This document shows, piece after piece, positions 1,839 to 17,848 of a stretch of 41,201 nucleotides of DNA (positions are counted from its first letter, which is position 1; every line of letters begins with the position of its first letter). Source of the DNA: an uncultured Methanobrevibacter sp. Lineage in GTDB: Archaea; Methanobacteriota; Methanobacteria; Methanobacteriales; Methanobacteriaceae. The stretch spans positions 1-41,201 of the forward strand of contig CADBPS010000050.1 of NCBI GenBank assembly GCA_902796575.1, written 5' to 3'. A program made the position numbers and the translations under genes. The notes beneath the pieces are model-generated. The model made no database searches, was not told where the DNA came from, and was given only the letters and a program-made list of their open reading frames with translations.

Positions 1839-2013
1839 TATGGATATTAATGAAAAAAGATTAAATGATGCTATTAATCTTAAGGCAAGTTTGAAATCTA
1901 AAATAGAAAAACTTGGAGATGATCCAAGAGCTGAAAGCTTTAAAGTACAGTTGGATAAAGTTAACGAGCTAATTGACTATTTAAAAAAAGAGAATTTAAA
2001 TGAACAGGAATAA
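1831..2013 (+). CDS. Small helical protein between Nudix and PLD-helicase genes
   Basis: A 60-residue, highly charged, predicted all-helical protein (heptad-like Leu/Ile spacing with Lys/Glu), no family recognised. It starts at ATG 1831 or at ATG 1840 two codons later; both are in frame. It overlaps the Nudix gene by 8 bases and the helicase gene by 14 bases, which is the main argument that it is real and co-translated. It could be a small adaptor for the helicase, but this is only inference from position. Confidence 0.6.
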   Translation: MINMDINEKRLNDAINLKASLKSKIEKLGDDPRAESFKVQLDKVNELIDYLKKENLNEQE

Positions 2014-4963
2014 TATTATTGAAGGAGCAAGGACGGCATTTATTGATGGAAGCATTAATTCCAGTGATGATTTCAGGCCCAAATTACTATATAACAGCAA
2101 AAACAGTAAAGTTATTAATTCAATCAGAGATGAGCTTAAAGACTGTGATGAGTTTATTATTTCATCTGCATTTATAACTTTGGGAGGAATCACACCCCTT
2201 CTGGAAGAGTTTAAAAATCTCGAAAAGAACAACATTAAAGGTAAAATTTTAACAACAGATTATCTGAATTTTACAGAACCTAAAGCTTTAAGAAAACTTG
2301 ATAAATTCAAAAATCTTGAGATTAAGTTATACAGTCAGAAAAAGGAAGGCTTTCACACTAAAGGTTACATTTTCAAAAAGGATGACGTTTACAGAGGCAT
2401 TGTTGGAAGTTCCAATTTAACCATGAACGCATTAACTGTCAACAAGGAGTGGAACGTTGAATTCACATCCTTAAGTGAAGGTGAAATGCTTTTGGAAATC
2501 AAAAAGGAATTTAATGAATTATGGGATAGTGCAGATTCACTAAAAAATGTTCTTCCGATTTATGAAAAAATTTATGAAGACAATAAAAACTTCAAAAAAT
2601 TAAGAAAAATAACCGAAAAGTTAAAAAAAGACAATGTCACTAATCTGGCTCCCAATATAATGCAGGAAGATTTTATCAATAATTTAAGAAAATTAATTAA
2701 ACAGGGCGAATCCAGAGCTATTCTGGTTTCAGCAACAGGTACAGGTAAAACTTATGCATCGGCTTTTGCCGTGAAGGATTTTAATCCCAAAAGATTTCTA
2801 TTTTTAGTTCACCGTGAACAGATTGCAAAACAATCCATCAATGCATATAAAAATGTTTTTAAAAATCATGAAAACTTCGGACTGCTTTCAGGTAATTCCA
2901 AGGATTTTGATAAAAATTATCTTTTCTCCACTATCCAGACTATGAGCAAGGATGATGTTTATACCAGATATGATCCAGATTATTTTGATTACATTATTAT
3001 TGATGAGGTTCACAAGGCAGGTGCCTTAAGTTATCAGAAAATATTCAATTATTTCACACCAAAATTCTATTTGGGGATGACTGCTTCACCTGAACGTACA
3101 GACGGATTTAATATCTATGAATTATTTGACAATAATATTGCTCATGAAATAAGACTTCAAGAAGCTTTGGAAGAAGATCTTCTCTGTCCGTTCCATTACT
3201 TTGGAATAAGTGATGTTGAATTTGAGGATAATACCTTTGATGATGATTTTAAGGATTTCAATCTTTTGGCTTCACAGAAAAGGGTTGATTATCTTCTGGA
3301 AAAATCCGAATTTTACGGGTATTCCGGAGATAGAATTAAAGCTTTAGTATTCTGTTCCAGAAAAAAAGAAGCTGAATTGTTATCAAAGGAGTTTAATAAA
3401 AGGGGCCATCCTTCAATGGTATTGACAGGTGATGATTCCCAGAAAACCCGACTCGAAGCCATTGACAGACTTACCAATGACAAAAATCCCAATAAAATTG
3501 AATATATTTTCTCTGTTGATATTTTCAATGAGGGTGTTGATATTCCGGAAATCAACCAGGTTTTACTTGTAAGACCGACTGAATCACCAATCATTTTTAT
3601 TCAGCAGTTAGGAAGAGGTCTAAGAAAATATAAAAACAAGGAGTTTGTTGTTATTCTTGATTTTATCGGTAACTACAAGAACAATTTCATGATACCTATC
3701 GCCCTTTCAGGTGACAATTCATATGACAAGGACAGATATCGAAAATATGTAATGGAAAGTAACCGTATTATTCCGGGAGCTTCTTCAATCAATTTTGATG
3801 AAATTTCACGAAAGCGTATATATGAATCTATTAACAATACTTCATTTTCCAAAATAGCACTGTTTAAGGAAAAGTATAATCATTTAAAATATAAGTTAGG
3901 TAAAATTCCAATGCTGATAGACTTCCTTAATCAGGCAGAATTCAATCCTGAATTGATAGTGAATCATAATAAATTTAAAACCTACCATAAATTCCTTGAA
4001 TATGCTGAGGATGACTATACTGGATACCTGTCTGATGAGGAAAATGCCTCCTTAAAATTCATATCTTCAAAGATAATAAAAGCAATCAGGCCTCATGAAA
4101 TAGCTATTCTTAAATGCCTTAAGTATAACGGATATTTCACAATAAATACAATTGAAAGAATACTGAAAGAAAAATATGGTCTTTCAAATCAGTTTGAATC
4201 TGTAAAAGGTGCGATTAATTTTTTAAGCACACAATTTTACAAAAAGGAAACAAGTGATGATTACCAGGCGAATACTGTAACCAGCTGTATCGGCAAGTTC
4301 AGTGATGAATTTTATCAGAATATGTTTTTTAAATCACCTGATTTAAATGTTCTTAAAAATTTAAAAGACAATAAGGATTATAAGTTTGAAATATCACATT
4401 ATTTTAAAGGATGTCTGGCAAACAATACATATTTAAAACATATGGAAGATGCACTTGATTATGGACTTTTAAAATATAAAAATGTGTATTTGGATAAAAA
4501 TCCATTTAAATTATATGAAAAATACTCAAGAGAAGATGTTTTAAGACTCCTGAATTGGAAGCACTTTATGAACGGTCAAAATATTGGTGGATATAAGATT
4601 AAATATAATACATGTCCTATTTTTGTAACTTACAATAAAAAAGAAGATATTTCAGAAACTATCAACTATGAAGACCAGTTTATTGACAGGGAAACATTCT
4701 CCTGGATGAGCAGAAACAACCGTAGGACATCATCACCTGAACTGGAACCATTAATTAATTATAATGGGATTAATACTCTTTTATTTATACAGAAAAGCAA
4801 TGATGAGGGAATTGAATTTTATTACATTGGTAAATTAACTCCTTTAGACTACAATCAGGTTTATAGGACTATAAATGATAAAAAGCAGCCAATTGTTAAT
4901 TTCAAATTTAAAATAGAAAATGAAGTTAAAGATGAACTGTTCAACTATTTTGTGAATGACTAA
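2000..4963 (+). CDS. PLD nuclease-like / superfamily II helicase / DUF3427 protein
   Basis: This 987-residue protein has three parts. Residues about 25-165 form a phospholipase D-like domain with HTKGYIF (about 119) and GSSNLT (about 136), the pattern of PLD-type nucleases. Residues about 220-590 form a superfamily II helicase: Walker A ATGTGKT near 246, DEVH box near 335, TASPERTDG, and motif VI QQLGRGLRK near 535. The C-terminal part (about 600-985) fits the DUF3427 region found in proteins of this layout. The only PLD HKD motif seen is a single one, so a nuclease would need a dimer. It is third in an operon with a Nudix hydrolase and a small helical protein, overlapping the latter by 14 bases. 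DNA repair or antiviral defence is plausible but unproven. Confidence 0.88.
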   Translation: MNRNNIIEGARTAFIDGSINSSDDFRPKLLYNSKNSKVINSIRDELKDCDEFIISSAFITLGGITPLLEEFKNLEKNNIKGKILTTDYLNFTEPKALRKLDKFKNLEIKLYSQKKEGFHTKGYIFKKDDVYRGIVGSSNLTMNALTVNKEWNVEFTSLSEGEMLLEIKKEFNELWDSADSLKNVLPIYEKIYEDNKNFKKLRKITEKLKKDNVTNLAPNIMQEDFINNLRKLIKQGESRAILVSATGTGKTYASAFAVKDFNPKRFLFLVHREQIAKQSINAYKNVFKNHENFGLLSGNSKDFDKNYLFSTIQTMSKDDVYTRYDPDYFDYIIIDEVHKAGALSYQKIFNYFTPKFYLGMTASPERTDGFNIYELFDNNIAHEIRLQEALEEDLLCPFHYFGISDVEFEDNTFDDDFKDFNLLASQKRVDYLLEKSEFYGYSGDRIKALVFCSRKKEAELLSKEFNKRGHPSMVLTGDDSQKTRLEAIDRLTNDKNPNKIEYIFSVDIFNEGVDIPEINQVLLVRPTESPIIFIQQLGRGLRKYKNKEFVVILDFIGNYKNNFMIPIALSGDNSYDKDRYRKYVMESNRIIPGASSINFDEISRKRIYESINNTSFSKIALFKEKYNHLKYKLGKIPMLIDFLNQAEFNPELIVNHNKFKTYHKFLEYAEDDYTGYLSDEENASLKFISSKIIKAIRPHEIAILKCLKYNGYFTINTIERILKEKYGLSNQFESVKGAINFLSTQFYKKETSDDYQANTVTSCIGKFSDEFYQNMFFKSPDLNVLKNLKDNKDYKFEISHYFKGCLANNTYLKHMEDALDYGLLKYKNVYLDKNPFKLYEKYSREDVLRLLNWKHFMNGQNIGGYKIKYNTCPIFVTYNKKEDISETINYEDQFIDRETFSWMSRNNRRTSSPELEPLINYNGINTLLFIQKSNDEGIEFYYIGKLTPLDYNQVYRTINDKKQPIVNFKFKIENEVKDELFNYFVND

Positions 4964-11989: not shown

Positions 11990-12044
11990 TATCCATTCAT
12001 TGTGAATACTGCTTTTGCTTTTATTTAAATTTTAAAAATGTATA

Positions 12045-12059
12045 AGAGGTGAAAAAATT
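12045..12059 (+). promoter_or_regulatory. Shine-Dalgarno and ATT start of first transglutaminase ALP
   Basis: AGAGGTGA (12045-12052) is followed by four A and then ATT (12057-12059). There is no in-frame ATG, GTG or TTG between the upstream stop TAA (12033) and the TTG at 12102, which lies in the middle of the signal-peptide hydrophobic core. Starting at ATT restores a complete signal peptide. Confidence 0.65.
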
Positions 12060-14837
12060 TTCAATAGTAAAACAATAATTATATCAATTTGTCTGCTGTT
12101 TTTGATTATAGGTTTTGTTTCAGCAGCAGATACTGATAATATCACTGATGATTCAGATTTCCTGGATATATCAGCCACTGATTTTAATGATAATTCTCAA
12201 TTTCAATCAGATGATGGGGTTGATGAGAAAAATTCCACAACTTTAACTGGAAACGACACTGAAATATATTATTCCAGCCAGAGTGCATATCAGGTTGAGC
12301 TTACAGATAATAACGGTATAGGGCTTGCTAACCAAAGCATCATTTTTTCCGTTAACAATCACAACTACACAAGAAGCACTGATGATAACGGTATTGCAGC
12401 CATCAGGCTCAGTTTAACTTCAGGAACATATAATATCACTTCATATTATTCAGGCAATACTGATTATGAAAGCTCACAGACAAATAATCTTGTCACGATA
12501 CTGCCGACTGTCTATGGATGGGATATTCAAAAATACTACAAAAACAATACACAGTATTATGCTACTTTTTTAGACAGTGACGGAAATCCGCTCAACCACA
12601 GTGAGGTTACATTCAATATAAACGGTGTTTTTTATAAAAGATACACTAATCAGAGCGGTGTTGCAAAGCTCAATATTAATCTTTTTGCAGGCAGCTACAT
12701 TTTAACAGCCATTAACACTGCAAACAATGAGACCCGTTCAAATTCCATAACTGTTCTTCCGACAATTGAAGGAGAGGATATTGTAAAGTACTACATGAAC
12801 AGCACCCAGTATTATGCCACATTCCTTGATGATACAGGCGATCCCCTGGATGAGCGTAATGTTTCATTTAACATTAATGGTGTTTTATATAAAAGACACA
12901 CAGATCAGAACGGCAGGGCAAAACTGAACATTAATCTTAACCCGGGCACATACATTATTACTGCAATCAATCCGAATAATGAGGAAAATGCAGCCAACAC
13001 GATTACTGTACTTCCCACAATATCAGCAGAAAATCTGACAATGATTTATAAGGACGGAAGCAGGTTTAAGGCACAGGTCCTTGATGATATTGGTAATCCG
13101 TTAGCAGGCAGTAAAGTTACATTCAACGTTAACGGAAGATTTTACAACCGCACAAGCGACAGTGAAGGTAATGCCTATTTGGCTATTAACCTTAACTGTG
13201 GAGATTATATTGTAACCGCCACCAATGAAAAGGGACTGTCCGCTTCAGATACCGTTACAATATACAAATGTGATTCGAAACTTGAAGGAGAAGACATTCA
13301 TGCTATATCTGATACCTACAGAAGTTTTACCGTAAAATTAACAGGCCTCAACAACAAAACTATTGATTCAGCCACAGTTCACTTTATATATGCAGGTCAG
13401 AATGTAGCTGCCGCAACAGATAAAGACGGCAGGGCAACCCTTACAGTCATGAAACTCAAGGAAGGAAATTACACCATTGAATATTTCTTTGAAGGAGACT
13501 GGAATTACCATTCCTCAAAATCAAGCAGCAGGATGGTTGTGGAAAATTCAACGGTATCCCTGACAGGTCATGATTTGACCATGTATTATAAAGACGGTTC
13601 AAGATTCAATGTTACGTTAACAGATTTAAACAATACTCCTTTAGTTAACAGGACAGTAACCTTTATGATAAACCGTGCAGAATATAACCGCACAACAGAC
13701 AGTCAGGGAAATGCCGGTTTAAATGTTAATCTGATTCCGGGTAGCTATGATATTTCATACTCCTATTCCACAGAAAATGAAACAGATTATAATTATAAAT
13801 CAAACAAAATAACTGTTTTAAAACTTCCTGCAACATTAACCGCAAAGGATTTGACAATAAAACACGGCAGCGGAGGAGCATTTAGTGTAAGTTTAACCAA
13901 TTCTACCGGTGCAGGAATTGAAAACTCCCGTATCATATTCGATATAAATGGTGCTTCATATAAAAGAACTACAGATTCATCAGGTGTTGCTAAAATAGCT
14001 GTTAACCTTGGTGTAGGATATTATGAAATTAAAACTTCAATGGAAGATTCTATCTACAGTGCAGGCAGCATTTCCAATCATATTTTAGTAGACGGATTCA
14101 TAATAACTGCAGGTGAAAAAGCAAGTGTTGCCGGAGCAACCGATCATTTTTCTGTTCATATAAAAGACCCTTATGGTCAGCCGGTAGCAGGTGCTGAAAT
14201 TCTATTCAGTTACGCCGGAATAACTGATTCGGCAGTCAGTGATGAAAACGGTAACGCGGAAATTTCATTCAATCTGGCCCAGGGCGAATATCCGATTGTT
14301 TATAATTATGCTGCCGGAGATACTGTTGGCCAGTCAGTTATTCATGTATCAGACAGGTCATTAAGTCCCGCAAATACAATTACTGATTTAACTCCTTATC
14401 TGGTAAGTTCAAGCAACTGTCTGGTTTCAGATCCTGCCATTGTTTCACTTGCATCCAGGTTAACTGCAGGTTTAACCAGTCCAATGGACAAGGCCAGGGC
14501 GATTTATAACTATGTAAGGGACGGAATTTCATACAGCTATTACTATGATACTAAAAAGGGTGCTGTAGCTACTATGAACTCTGGATCCGGAAATTGTGTA
14601 GACCAGTCACATCTTGTTATTGCATTGTACAGGGCATCAGGTCTTCCTGCAAGGTATGTTCATGGAGTATGTACATTTGGTGATGAAAGAATAGGTCATG
14701 TATGGTCACAGGTATTGGTTGGTGATATGTGGATTGTATCAGACCCGATAAACGTCAGAAATTCATTAGGCAGAGTTGTTAATTGGAATAATTATGATTA
14801 TACCTTTAAATCATATTATGCAAGTCTTCCATTCTAA
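12057..14837 (+). CDS. Adhesin-like protein, Ig-like repeats plus C-terminal transglutaminase-like domain (copy 1)
   Basis: Counting from ATT 12057, this is a 926-residue secreted protein with a signal peptide (SKTIIISICLLFLIIGFVSA). After an acidic linker come eight Ig-like repeats of about 85 residues, most with a YxxATFLDxxGNPL / FNINGxxYxR / LNINLxxGxYIITA pattern. The last 130 residues are a transglutaminase-like fold with a full triad: Cys847 in GNCVDQ, His881 in GHVW, Asp896 in SDPIN. That fold includes crosslinkers and also the C71 pseudomurein endopeptidases of methanogen viruses, so acting on wall peptides is a fair inference. No C-terminal anchor is seen. A close paralogue follows directly downstream. 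Upstream lies a palindrome; transcription probably starts after an A/T-rich box near 12020-12035. Confidence 0.88.
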   Translation: MFNSKTIIISICLLFLIIGFVSAADTDNITDDSDFLDISATDFNDNSQFQSDDGVDEKNSTTLTGNDTEIYYSSQSAYQVELTDNNGIGLANQSIIFSVNNHNYTRSTDDNGIAAIRLSLTSGTYNITSYYSGNTDYESSQTNNLVTILPTVYGWDIQKYYKNNTQYYATFLDSDGNPLNHSEVTFNINGVFYKRYTNQSGVAKLNINLFAGSYILTAINTANNETRSNSITVLPTIEGEDIVKYYMNSTQYYATFLDDTGDPLDERNVSFNINGVLYKRHTDQNGRAKLNINLNPGTYIITAINPNNEENAANTITVLPTISAENLTMIYKDGSRFKAQVLDDIGNPLAGSKVTFNVNGRFYNRTSDSEGNAYLAINLNCGDYIVTATNEKGLSASDTVTIYKCDSKLEGEDIHAISDTYRSFTVKLTGLNNKTIDSATVHFIYAGQNVAAATDKDGRATLTVMKLKEGNYTIEYFFEGDWNYHSSKSSSRMVVENSTVSLTGHDLTMYYKDGSRFNVTLTDLNNTPLVNRTVTFMINRAEYNRTTDSQGNAGLNVNLIPGSYDISYSYSTENETDYNYKSNKITVLKLPATLTAKDLTIKHGSGGAFSVSLTNSTGAGIENSRIIFDINGASYKRTTDSSGVAKIAVNLGVGYYEIKTSMEDSIYSAGSISNHILVDGFIITAGEKASVAGATDHFSVHIKDPYGQPVAGAEILFSYAGITDSAVSDENGNAEISFNLAQGEYPIVYNYAAGDTVGQSVIHVSDRSLSPANTITDLTPYLVSSSNCLVSDPAIVSLASRLTAGLTSPMDKARAIYNYVRDGISYSYYYDTKKGAVATMNSGSGNCVDQSHLVIALYRASGLPARYVHGVCTFGDERIGHVWSQVLVGDMWIVSDPINVRNSLGRVVNWNNYDYTFKSYYASLPF

Positions 14838-15029
14838 TTAACATCTTTTTATTTTTTAACCAATAATTATCACTTTATATTATTTTTCAAAATAGGATAT
14901 TCAAATTTAATTATCACCGATTTTAAAAAGTATTACTCTTGAATTTTAAAAAAATGTATATATTAATAAGTCATATAAAGTTACACATGCATTTAGAATG
15001 CTTAATATTAATATATTCAATCAAATAGT

Positions 15030-15043
15030 GAGGTGAAAAAATT
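15030..15043 (+). promoter_or_regulatory. Shine-Dalgarno and ATT start of second transglutaminase ALP
   Basis: GAGGTGA (15030-15036), four A, then ATT (15041-15043). An in-frame TGA lies at 15029, and no ATG, GTG or TTG occurs between it and TTG 15080, which lies inside the signal peptide. The arrangement is the same as in the neighbouring paralogue. Confidence 0.65.
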
Positions 15044-17848
15044 TCGCAAAATAAAACGATAATCATATCCATCGTCTGTTTGCTGTTTTTAATGATAGGT
15101 TCACTTTCAGCAGCAGACCCGGATAATACAATTGATGAATCTGAGTTAAGTGTTTCAAATTCCAATTCACTTTTAACAGCAGATTCAGATGATGATTCTC
15201 AATTCCTCCTGCAGGATGAGGATGTCACAGACAATGAAAAGAATTCAACAACTCTAAGGGGAAACGATACGGAACTGTACTATAAAAACGGAACTGCCTA
15301 TCAGGTTGAATTATTGGATAACAGCGGTTCTCCGTTAAACAATCAGAGCATTATTTTTTCAATAAACGGCAATAATTATACCCGACACACCAATGATAAT
15401 GGTATTGCAAGTATTGCACTTGATTTGAGCTCCGGAACCTATAATATTACATCATACTATAAGGGCAGTACCGACTATGAAAACTCAACAGCCGTTAATC
15501 TTATTAAAGTACTTCCTACCCTATACGGAGAGGATGTTGAAAAGTACTATAAAAACGATACACAGTATTATGCTACTTTTTTTGACGGACAGGGAAATCC
15601 GTTGAATAAAAGTGAAGTTACATTCAATATAAATGGTGTTTTATATAAAAGATACACTAATCAGAATGGTGTTGCAAAGCTTAACATTAATCTTTTTGCC
15701 GGCGAATATATTATAACGGCCATTAACACTTTTAACAATGAAACCCGTTCAAATTTCATCACAGTTCTTCCGACTATTTTCGGTGATGATATTGAAAAGT
15801 ACTACAGGAATAATACGCAGTACTTTGCCACATTCTTTGATGGTACAGGCAATTCCCTAAATAACAAAGAAGTTACATTTAACATTAACGGAGTATTATA
15901 TAAAAGATACACCAATTCCGACGGCACTGCAAGATTAAACATTAATCTTAACCCCGGCACATATATTATCACCGCAACAAATATGTACAATCAGGAAAAT
16001 GCAGCCAACAGCATTACCGTACTGCCTACAATATCAGCTGATGACCTAGCTATGACTTACAAAGACGGCAGCAGATTTACAGCACATGTCCTTGATGATA
16101 CAGGCAATGCATTAGCCGGCAGTAAAGTTACATTCAATGTTAACGGAAGATTCTACAACCGCACAAGCGACAGTGAAGGTAATGTCTACTTAGCCATTAA
16201 CCTTAACAGTGGAGATTATATTATAACCGCCACCAATGAAAAGGGACTGTCAGCATCAAATAATATTATTATAAAAAAATGTGATTCAGTGCTTGAAGGT
16301 GGGGATATTCACGCTGTTTCAGATACATACCGCAGATTCAGCGTTAGATTAACAGGCCTTAACAATAAAACAATCGAATCAGCTACTGTTCATTTCTCAT
16401 ATGCCAACCAGGCTACAACTGCTCTAACAGGTAGTGACGGTGTGGCAACGGCTGTGATTTCAAAACTTGAAAAAGGAAACTATATTATAAATTATTTCTT
16501 TGAAGGAGACTGGAATTACCACTCCTCTAAATCATCCAGCATACTGGTTGTGGAAGATTCAACTGTTTTATTAACAGGTAATGATTTAAACATGCTTTAC
16601 AATGACGGCTCTATGTTCAATGTTACTTTAACTGATTTGAATCACAATCCATTAGCTAACAGAACAGTAACATTTATGCTGAACGGTGCAGAGTACAATC
16701 GCACAACTGACACTGATGGAGCTGCCGGTTTAAGCATCAATCTGAATCCCGGAGTTTATACTGTTTCATATTCCCACTCGACAGAAAATGAGACGGATTA
16801 TAATTTCAAATCAAATTTAATAAATGTTGCAAAACTTCCTGCTGCCTTAAATGCAAATGATTTAATTATAAAAGCAGGCAACAGCGGAACATTTGATGTA
16901 ACATTAACAGATTCAAATAATGCTCCAATTGAAAACAAAAAAATTAATTTCAATATAAATGGCGCTTCATATAAAAGAACCACAGATTCATCAGGTGTTG
17001 CAAGATTGACTGTTAACTTAGGTGTCGGATATTATGAAATTACAACCTCCTTTGATGATTTAATATACAGTGCAAATACGATTTCAAATCATATTCTGGT
17101 AGACGGTTTTATAATAACTGCAAGTGACAAAAATACTATTGCAGGTGTAACGGATTATTTCTCTGCCCGCTTACTTGATCCATATGGCAGACCGGTTTCC
17201 AATGCTGAAATTCTATTCAGCTATTATGGAGTTACCTCTTCAGCCATTACAGACGGAAATGGAAAGGCTACAATTTCCTTTAATTTACCTGAAGGAGATC
17301 ATGTGATTGTTTATAATTATGCTGCAGGAAATACTGCAGGACAATCTGTTATTCATTCAAAAGGCAGTGTATTGAACACCAGAAATACTATTTCAGATTT
17401 GGGTCCTTATCTGGGAAATTCCAATAACTGTCCGGTTACAAATCCAATCATTGTTTCACTGGCAGCTCAGTTAACTGAAGGATTGACCAGCCCTATAGAT
17501 AAGGCTATGGCGATTTACAATTATGTAAGGGATGGTGTTTCATACAGTCATTACTATAATACCAGACATGGTGCTTTAGGCACTCTCGATTTAAAATCCG
17601 GAAATTGTGTAGACCAGTCACATCTGCTGATTGCTCTATATCGTGCTTCAGGCCTTCCTGCAAGATATGTTCACGGAATATGTGAATTCGGTGATGAAAC
17701 ATCAGGTCATGTATGGGTACAGGTACTGCTTGACAATACATGGGTTGTATGCGATCCGATAAACGTTCGAAATTCAGTAGGTAAAGTTGTTAATTGGAAT
17801 AACTACAATTATAATCTTAAAGGATATTATTCTAGTCTTCCGTTCTAA
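15041..17848 (+). CDS. Adhesin-like protein, Ig-like repeats plus C-terminal transglutaminase-like domain (copy 2)
   Basis: From ATT 15041 this is a 935-residue paralogue of the preceding protein, with the same order: signal peptide (NKTIIISIVCLLFLMIG), acidic linker, eight Ig-like repeats, and a C-terminal transglutaminase-like domain with Cys856, His890 and Asp905. Spacings between triad residues are identical to copy 1 (34 and 15). Some repeats are nearly identical in DNA between the copies, for example around 13150-13250 and 16150-16250, which suggests recent duplication or gene conversion. The gene ends in a T-rich stretch (17852-17875) that probably terminates it against the convergent surE. 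Surface location is expected; how it is held without an anchor is unknown. Confidence 0.88.
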   Translation: MSQNKTIIISIVCLLFLMIGSLSAADPDNTIDESELSVSNSNSLLTADSDDDSQFLLQDEDVTDNEKNSTTLRGNDTELYYKNGTAYQVELLDNSGSPLNNQSIIFSINGNNYTRHTNDNGIASIALDLSSGTYNITSYYKGSTDYENSTAVNLIKVLPTLYGEDVEKYYKNDTQYYATFFDGQGNPLNKSEVTFNINGVLYKRYTNQNGVAKLNINLFAGEYIITAINTFNNETRSNFITVLPTIFGDDIEKYYRNNTQYFATFFDGTGNSLNNKEVTFNINGVLYKRYTNSDGTARLNINLNPGTYIITATNMYNQENAANSITVLPTISADDLAMTYKDGSRFTAHVLDDTGNALAGSKVTFNVNGRFYNRTSDSEGNVYLAINLNSGDYIITATNEKGLSASNNIIIKKCDSVLEGGDIHAVSDTYRRFSVRLTGLNNKTIESATVHFSYANQATTALTGSDGVATAVISKLEKGNYIINYFFEGDWNYHSSKSSSILVVEDSTVLLTGNDLNMLYNDGSMFNVTLTDLNHNPLANRTVTFMLNGAEYNRTTDTDGAAGLSINLNPGVYTVSYSHSTENETDYNFKSNLINVAKLPAALNANDLIIKAGNSGTFDVTLTDSNNAPIENKKINFNINGASYKRTTDSSGVARLTVNLGVGYYEITTSFDDLIYSANTISNHILVDGFIITASDKNTIAGVTDYFSARLLDPYGRPVSNAEILFSYYGVTSSAITDGNGKATISFNLPEGDHVIVYNYAAGNTAGQSVIHSKGSVLNTRNTISDLGPYLGNSNNCPVTNPIIVSLAAQLTEGLTSPIDKAMAIYNYVRDGVSYSHYYNTRHGALGTLDLKSGNCVDQSHLLIALYRASGLPARYVHGICEFGDETSGHVWVQVLLDNTWVVCDPINVRNSVGKVVNWNNYNYNLKGYYSSLPF

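Follow-up and report, generated by a model that had tools for sequence, protein, structure and literature searches.

Conserved ATT codons behind strong Shine-Dalgarno sequences as probable start codons of secreted transglutaminase genes in Methanobacteriaceae

The window, a 41,201-nucleotide stretch of DNA from an uncultured Methanobrevibacter sp., comes from a draft genome of 1.97 Mb in 161 contigs, where it is contig C50. Its forward strand carries two tandem paralogues, gene 1 (12057–14837, 926 aa) and gene 2 (15041–17848, 935 aa), whose products are 71% identical and share one architecture: a signal peptide (about 12057–12125 in gene 1), Ig-like repeats, and a C-terminal transglutaminase (TG) domain. 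Pfam identified Big_1, Big_3_5 and Transglut_core, with the Ig-like repeats N-terminal to the TG domain, confirming the proposal of an earlier note on this DNA that both are TG-type adhesin-like proteins (ALPs). The TG domain matches PDB 3isr (E 3.7e-6), and the catalytic triad Cys847, His881 and Asp896 is conserved in both copies. Group-III TG-type ALPs of M. smithii and Methanosphaera stadtmanae have an N-terminal membrane segment, Ig-like repeats, a C-terminal transglutaminase and, often, a pseudomurein-binding repeat (PMC11532034). The window pair shares this architecture, with an N-terminal hydrophobic segment apparent from sequence and hydropathy when ATT is taken as the start, but lacks a detectable pseudomurein-binding repeat: Pfam found no PF09373 across 12057–17848. 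Elsewhere in the window, positions 2000–4963 encode a helicase with a PLD-like domain and DUF3427, possibly a restriction-type defense protein.

Upstream of gene 1, an in-frame TAA at 12033–12035 is followed by AAATGTATAAGAGGTGAAAAA and then, separated by AAAA from the Shine-Dalgarno sequence (SD) GAGGTGA at 12046–12052, by ATT at 12057–12059. An ATG within AAATGTATAAGAGGTGAAAAA is in another frame, which a stop inside the SD closes. Upstream of gene 2, an in-frame TGA at 15029–15031 is followed by GGTGAAAAA and then by ATT at 15041–15043, again with AAAA between the SD (GAGGTGA, 15030–15036) and the ATT. The first conventional codons in frame after these ATTs are TTG at 12102–12104 (codon 16 of gene 1) and TTG at 15080 (codon 14 of gene 2), both located in the hydrophobic core and lacking an SD. 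Our rereading of bases and frames agrees with the earlier note on the coordinates, SD, AAAA spacer and ATT of both genes, and on its claim that no ATG, GTG or TTG lies between the upstream stops and the signal core. The comparison gene it had cited, a third ALP starting with TTG at the same SD distance, is also present on the minus strand (8453–5016, start codon 8451–8453) and is papain-type.

The complement of the anti-SD is AGGAGGTGATC. For ATG starts with a good SD, sampled from two genomes, the aligned SD-to-start distance peaks at 13–14. Both window ATTs lie at an aligned distance of exactly 13 behind a 7-base SD match, a placement that exceeds chance. Non-canonical starts of this kind are rare. 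We scanned 800 kb from genome G033 and about 250 kb from that of the window for near-perfect SDs with no usable conventional start. The credible cases were both window genes, coaB (ATC) and two genes of the CobN region (ATT), in one of which an ATG follows five codons on. General use of ATT as a start in these genomes was ruled out, as non-canonical starts are very rare in this ~1 Mb of two genomes. The complete G033 genome contains nine copies of GGTGRAARRATT, of which only two mark the starts of long ORFs with no other start; both ORFs encode large secreted proteins, namely the TG gene and a 1,608-aa CobN/Mg-chelatase-like protein. Among the 30 of 34 G033 tRNA loci scanned, methionine and isoleucine were represented only by tRNA-Met(CAU) and one tRNA-Ile(GAU), and no odd initiator tRNA was present.

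Related TG genes occur throughout the genus as a core orthologue, present almost exactly once per genome and followed, in complete loci, by a coaD-like gene and a 4Fe-4S protein gene. Genomes carrying it include Methanobrevibacter thaueri, M. millerae and many uncultured rumen and gut Methanobrevibacter, and the proteins have a median identity of about 49%. A PF09373 repeat lies just before the TG domain in two core orthologues (L136 and L129). One of these, L129 (also L011), is a third copy in the window's own genome, on contig C81, with ATT in the same place and an in-frame ATG 21 nt upstream.

We searched 67 genus genomes with a pattern that leaves the start triplet fully open, TTCRTAATGAGAN{1,8}GAGGTGN8H. 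It matched 55 sites in 54 genomes, and the triplet was ATT at 55 of 55, a count drawn from related species and hence from non-independent observations; partial selection of loci by the pattern inflates leader conservation, not the open triplet. The pattern had no match in 72 genomes of 16 other genera, and control matches were nil. ATT was also present in four genomes missed by the strict pattern (L183, L184, L188, L192), and of the window-pair orthologues in four other genomes, L059, L061 and L068 have ATT and L060 (genome G041) has ATA. From stop to ATT, 52 of 56 fetched loci contain no conventional codon. Codon periodicity in the core orthologue begins at the ATT: conservation of codon positions 1, 2 and 3 is 0.75, 0.89 and 0.60 over codons 2–21, and is flat at 0.96–0.98 upstream. 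The earlier note had proposed AUU starts for both window genes and an orthologue alignment as a check, and the orthologues strongly support such starts. By exclusion and conservation, AUU is most likely the codon at which initiation occurs.

Standard gene callers would instead place the start at an internal TTG or ATG downstream of the ATT, and such codons are indeed present in most of the genes, TTG 12102 and TTG 15080 among them. We consider an internal start improbable: the codons lie in or at the hydrophobic core without an SD, and starting there would remove the charged n-region. Their positions, including those of the internal TTGs that the earlier note had weighed as possible starts, are not conserved among orthologues. 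In the 56 loci, the first downstream conventional codon ranges from codon 3 to codon 32 or is missing from the first 60 codons altogether, as in L093 and L125.

An ATG upstream of the ATT, in frame or else joined by programmed frameshifting, could likewise serve as the start. The core orthologue has a conserved AATGAGA 18–22 nt upstream of the ATT, and four loci (L091, L116, L129, L143) carry it in frame. However, the spacer between AATGAGA and the SD is 2, 3, 4, 5 or 6 nt, differing among species, so that no upstream frame is conserved; a stop intervenes in most loci, window gene 2 and L059 lack any upstream ATG, and the element is absent from other genera. An upstream start is thus very improbable, and the upstream in-frame ATG that the earlier note had envisaged in orthologues did not emerge as a conserved feature. 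A conserved upstream peptide was ruled out, because the upstream ORF beginning at AATGAGA differs in frame and length. AATGAGA may lie at the mRNA 5′ end.

The draft state of the window's assembly raises the question of sequencing error, which the earlier note had also considered, or of pseudogenes. Yet the same bases are found in the finished, single-contig genomes G011, G013, G028 and G033 and in tens of others, the ORFs, roughly 900 to 1145 codons long, are uninterrupted, and both window copies keep the catalytic triad. Error or gene decay therefore retains next to no probability. In one genome (G047, L115), the core TG gene has a deletion or frameshift inside the signal peptide with leader and ATT intact, perhaps a recent inactivation or an assembly error.

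The sequence in front of the ATT is itself strongly conserved. Conservation of the genus leader over −20 to −1 reaches 96%, compared with 78% for the neighboring coaD-like gene, a contrast that partly reflects selection of loci by pattern. A stretch of about 35 nt in front of one core ALP gene, TAAAATTTTCGTAATGAGAACCAAGAGGTGGAAAA, hardly varies (for example L136, upstream of 523). Such conservation might mean that the leader is maintained as a promoter, 5′UTR or RNA element and that AUU is a tolerated relic, with no selection for weak initiation. We regard this as rather unlikely, although it deserves more weight than the alternatives above. ATT persists in genera with a different leader, the leaders of the core orthologue and window gene 1 fold no more stably than shuffled sequences (z about 0), and switches to AUG are the favored direction in closely related prokaryotes, where a change from AUG to AUU was seen once in 61,358 (PMC5622118). 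Only the leader of window gene 2 folds moderately, with a z of −2.0.

To follow the start codon through the family, we searched 44 genomes from 16 other genera at the protein level and fetched the genes. The resulting TG set comprises 84 protein-selected ORFs, genus ORFs included, each with a hydrophobic segment and a stop upstream. The triplet behind the best SD was ATT in 57, ATC in five, ATA in one, ATG in five and TTG in one; among ORFs with no conventional codon, 25 of 29 scored ATT. In twelve further ORFs the scored triplet was AAG, TCG or AAT and the adjoining codon is ATT (ATC in two); most of these have a double SD such as GGAGGCGGTAARATTAAG. In one other ORF, a canonical ATG precedes the scored site. 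Reading the codon beside the ambiguous double SDs yields about 67 ATT, 7 ATC, 1 ATA and 6 ATG, and ATT, ATC or ATA therefore stands at optimal SD distance in about 75 of the 84 genes. In some TG genes a conventional codon is nearby (for example ATT TTG), and the start is ambiguous there. About a dozen of 17 genera provide ATT examples, while the examples from one genus (g6) are ATG. Leaders in other genera differ (GGAGGCGGTAARATT, GAGGTGAAAAAATT), yet ATT is present. Taken together, AUU is most likely the conserved start of a family of secreted, transglutaminase-bearing and often pseudomurein-binding envelope proteins in Methanobacteriaceae.

A second TG-ALP subfamily (L186, L187, L195, L207, L196) places ATT directly before TTG (GGAGGTAAAATATTTTGAAC). 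In one L196 gene of this subfamily the TTG is replaced by TCG, and ATT is the sole candidate start.

The CobN-like proteins provide a second family. Nearly all of the 28 genus orthologues have an SD with 8–9 matches out of 9. At distance 13–14 their triplet is ACG, ATC or ATT, with one ATA and one TTG, but never ATG; five of these orthologues carry an in-frame GTG inside the SD. Near-cognates make up 4–7% of neighboring codons in CobN-like genes, a figure uncorrected for relatedness. Because the triplet varies only among codons one base from AUG, it is strong evidence of a start site. Elsewhere, CobN-like genes have ATC (L422) or ATT (L439, L440), and many, from several other genera, have conventional starts. 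Judged from these two families, the non-canonical start is a family-wide feature that extends to other near-cognate codons, well beyond the window genes described in the earlier note.

Two further cases are less clear-cut. On the minus strand of L232, a 1895-codon ORF adjoining the CobN-like gene has GGGAGGTGAAAAT-ATT with an ATG five codons later, leaving its start ambiguous. In about 22 of 30 genus genomes, coaB (L293–L322; the G033 copy is L228, minus strand) has no ATG, GTG or TTG ahead of its conserved N-terminus. The gene lies closely behind the coaC stop. In M. smithii-like genomes, with ATC at SD distance 13, it shares the frame of that stop, and in the others its frame differs; reinitiation, a non-AUG start and recoding are candidate readings.

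How might an AUU be used in these genes? The ordinary initiator Met-tRNA (anticodon CAU) would read AUU, and the protein would still begin with Met. A strong SD at optimal distance would hold the 30S subunit over the AUU and offset the mismatched third base. The inefficient start may in turn limit how much of a large wall-acting enzyme is made, or allow that amount to be controlled, and excess exported transglutaminase could be harmful to the wall. We think it probable that these elements hold jointly, namely that AUU is the start used by Met-tRNAi, rescued by a strong SD, conserved in the family, and kept because a weak start limits or controls output.

Lowered output from a weak start, as the earlier note had suggested, would fit with how deeply a non-AUG codon is conserved here after a strong SD. 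None of the 55 genus sites has switched to AUG, though one base would suffice, which suggests selection against a strong start of the kind demonstrated for sigR (PMC5472188). The conservation is compatible both with selection for weak initiation and with long-term tolerance. A weak start is not essential, because six TG genes of the family use ATG. The further idea that output is tied to initiation-factor levels would extend to these genes only by analogy with infC.

In bacteria, infC, which encodes IF3, has a conserved AUU start, and this codon sets infC expression by way of the initiation fidelity factor (PMC5472188 and references therein). The conserved AUU start is common to both cases, but infC is autoregulated and encodes the fidelity factor itself, whereas the window products are secreted Ig-like/transglutaminase envelope proteins of archaea that lack IF3. 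Archaea have no IF3, and their relevant fidelity factor would be aIF1 (PMC7531240, PMC8211752). In Streptomyces, sigR has a conserved GTC start whose canonical replacement causes overproduction (PMC5472188). Like the genes described here, sigR has a conserved non-canonical start, is not a translation-factor gene, and is invisible to gene callers; unlike them, it is bacterial, uses GTC, depends on IF3 and has been proven by mutation, while the archaeal AUU, AUC and ACG starts are predicted from sequences. As in infC and sigR, a codon other than ATG, GTG or TTG stands at the correct SD distance with no usable alternative and is conserved across species.

Eukaryotic near-cognate initiation uses codons one base from AUG (AUU, AUC, AUA, ACG, UUG) and depends on scanning and context. 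The archaeal genes resemble it in placing near-cognates at a fixed start position, but here the dependence is on a strong SD. To our knowledge, very few non-canonical starts have been proven to matter, and these are bacterial (infC, sigR).

Exported transglutaminases of orthologue group OG0000044 have been proposed as pseudomurein cross-linkers (PMC11915815). The window pair is akin to these in being exported transglutaminases of pseudomurein-walled archaea, a likeness of type. Neither "start codon" nor "signal peptide" occurs as a term in PMC11532034. A gene caller that accepts only ATG, GTG and TTG will inevitably cut short the signal peptides of these proteins, among them candidate pseudomurein cross-linkers of gut and rumen methanogens.

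More tentatively, Methanobacteriaceae may possess a program in which AUU, AUC, AUA or ACG behind a near-complete SD throttles a few large envelope enzymes, the transglutaminase/pseudomurein-binding proteins and the CobN-like surface proteins, with output tied to aIF1 fidelity. Such a program would be an archaeal counterpart of infC and sigR, a possibility that we would not yet favor. If the starts proposed here are used, an AUU/AUC family in most genera and an ACG/AUC/AUU family would together form a natural system for studying how aIF1, aIF1A and aIF2 handle near-cognate codons, and for asking why selection keeps a weak start.
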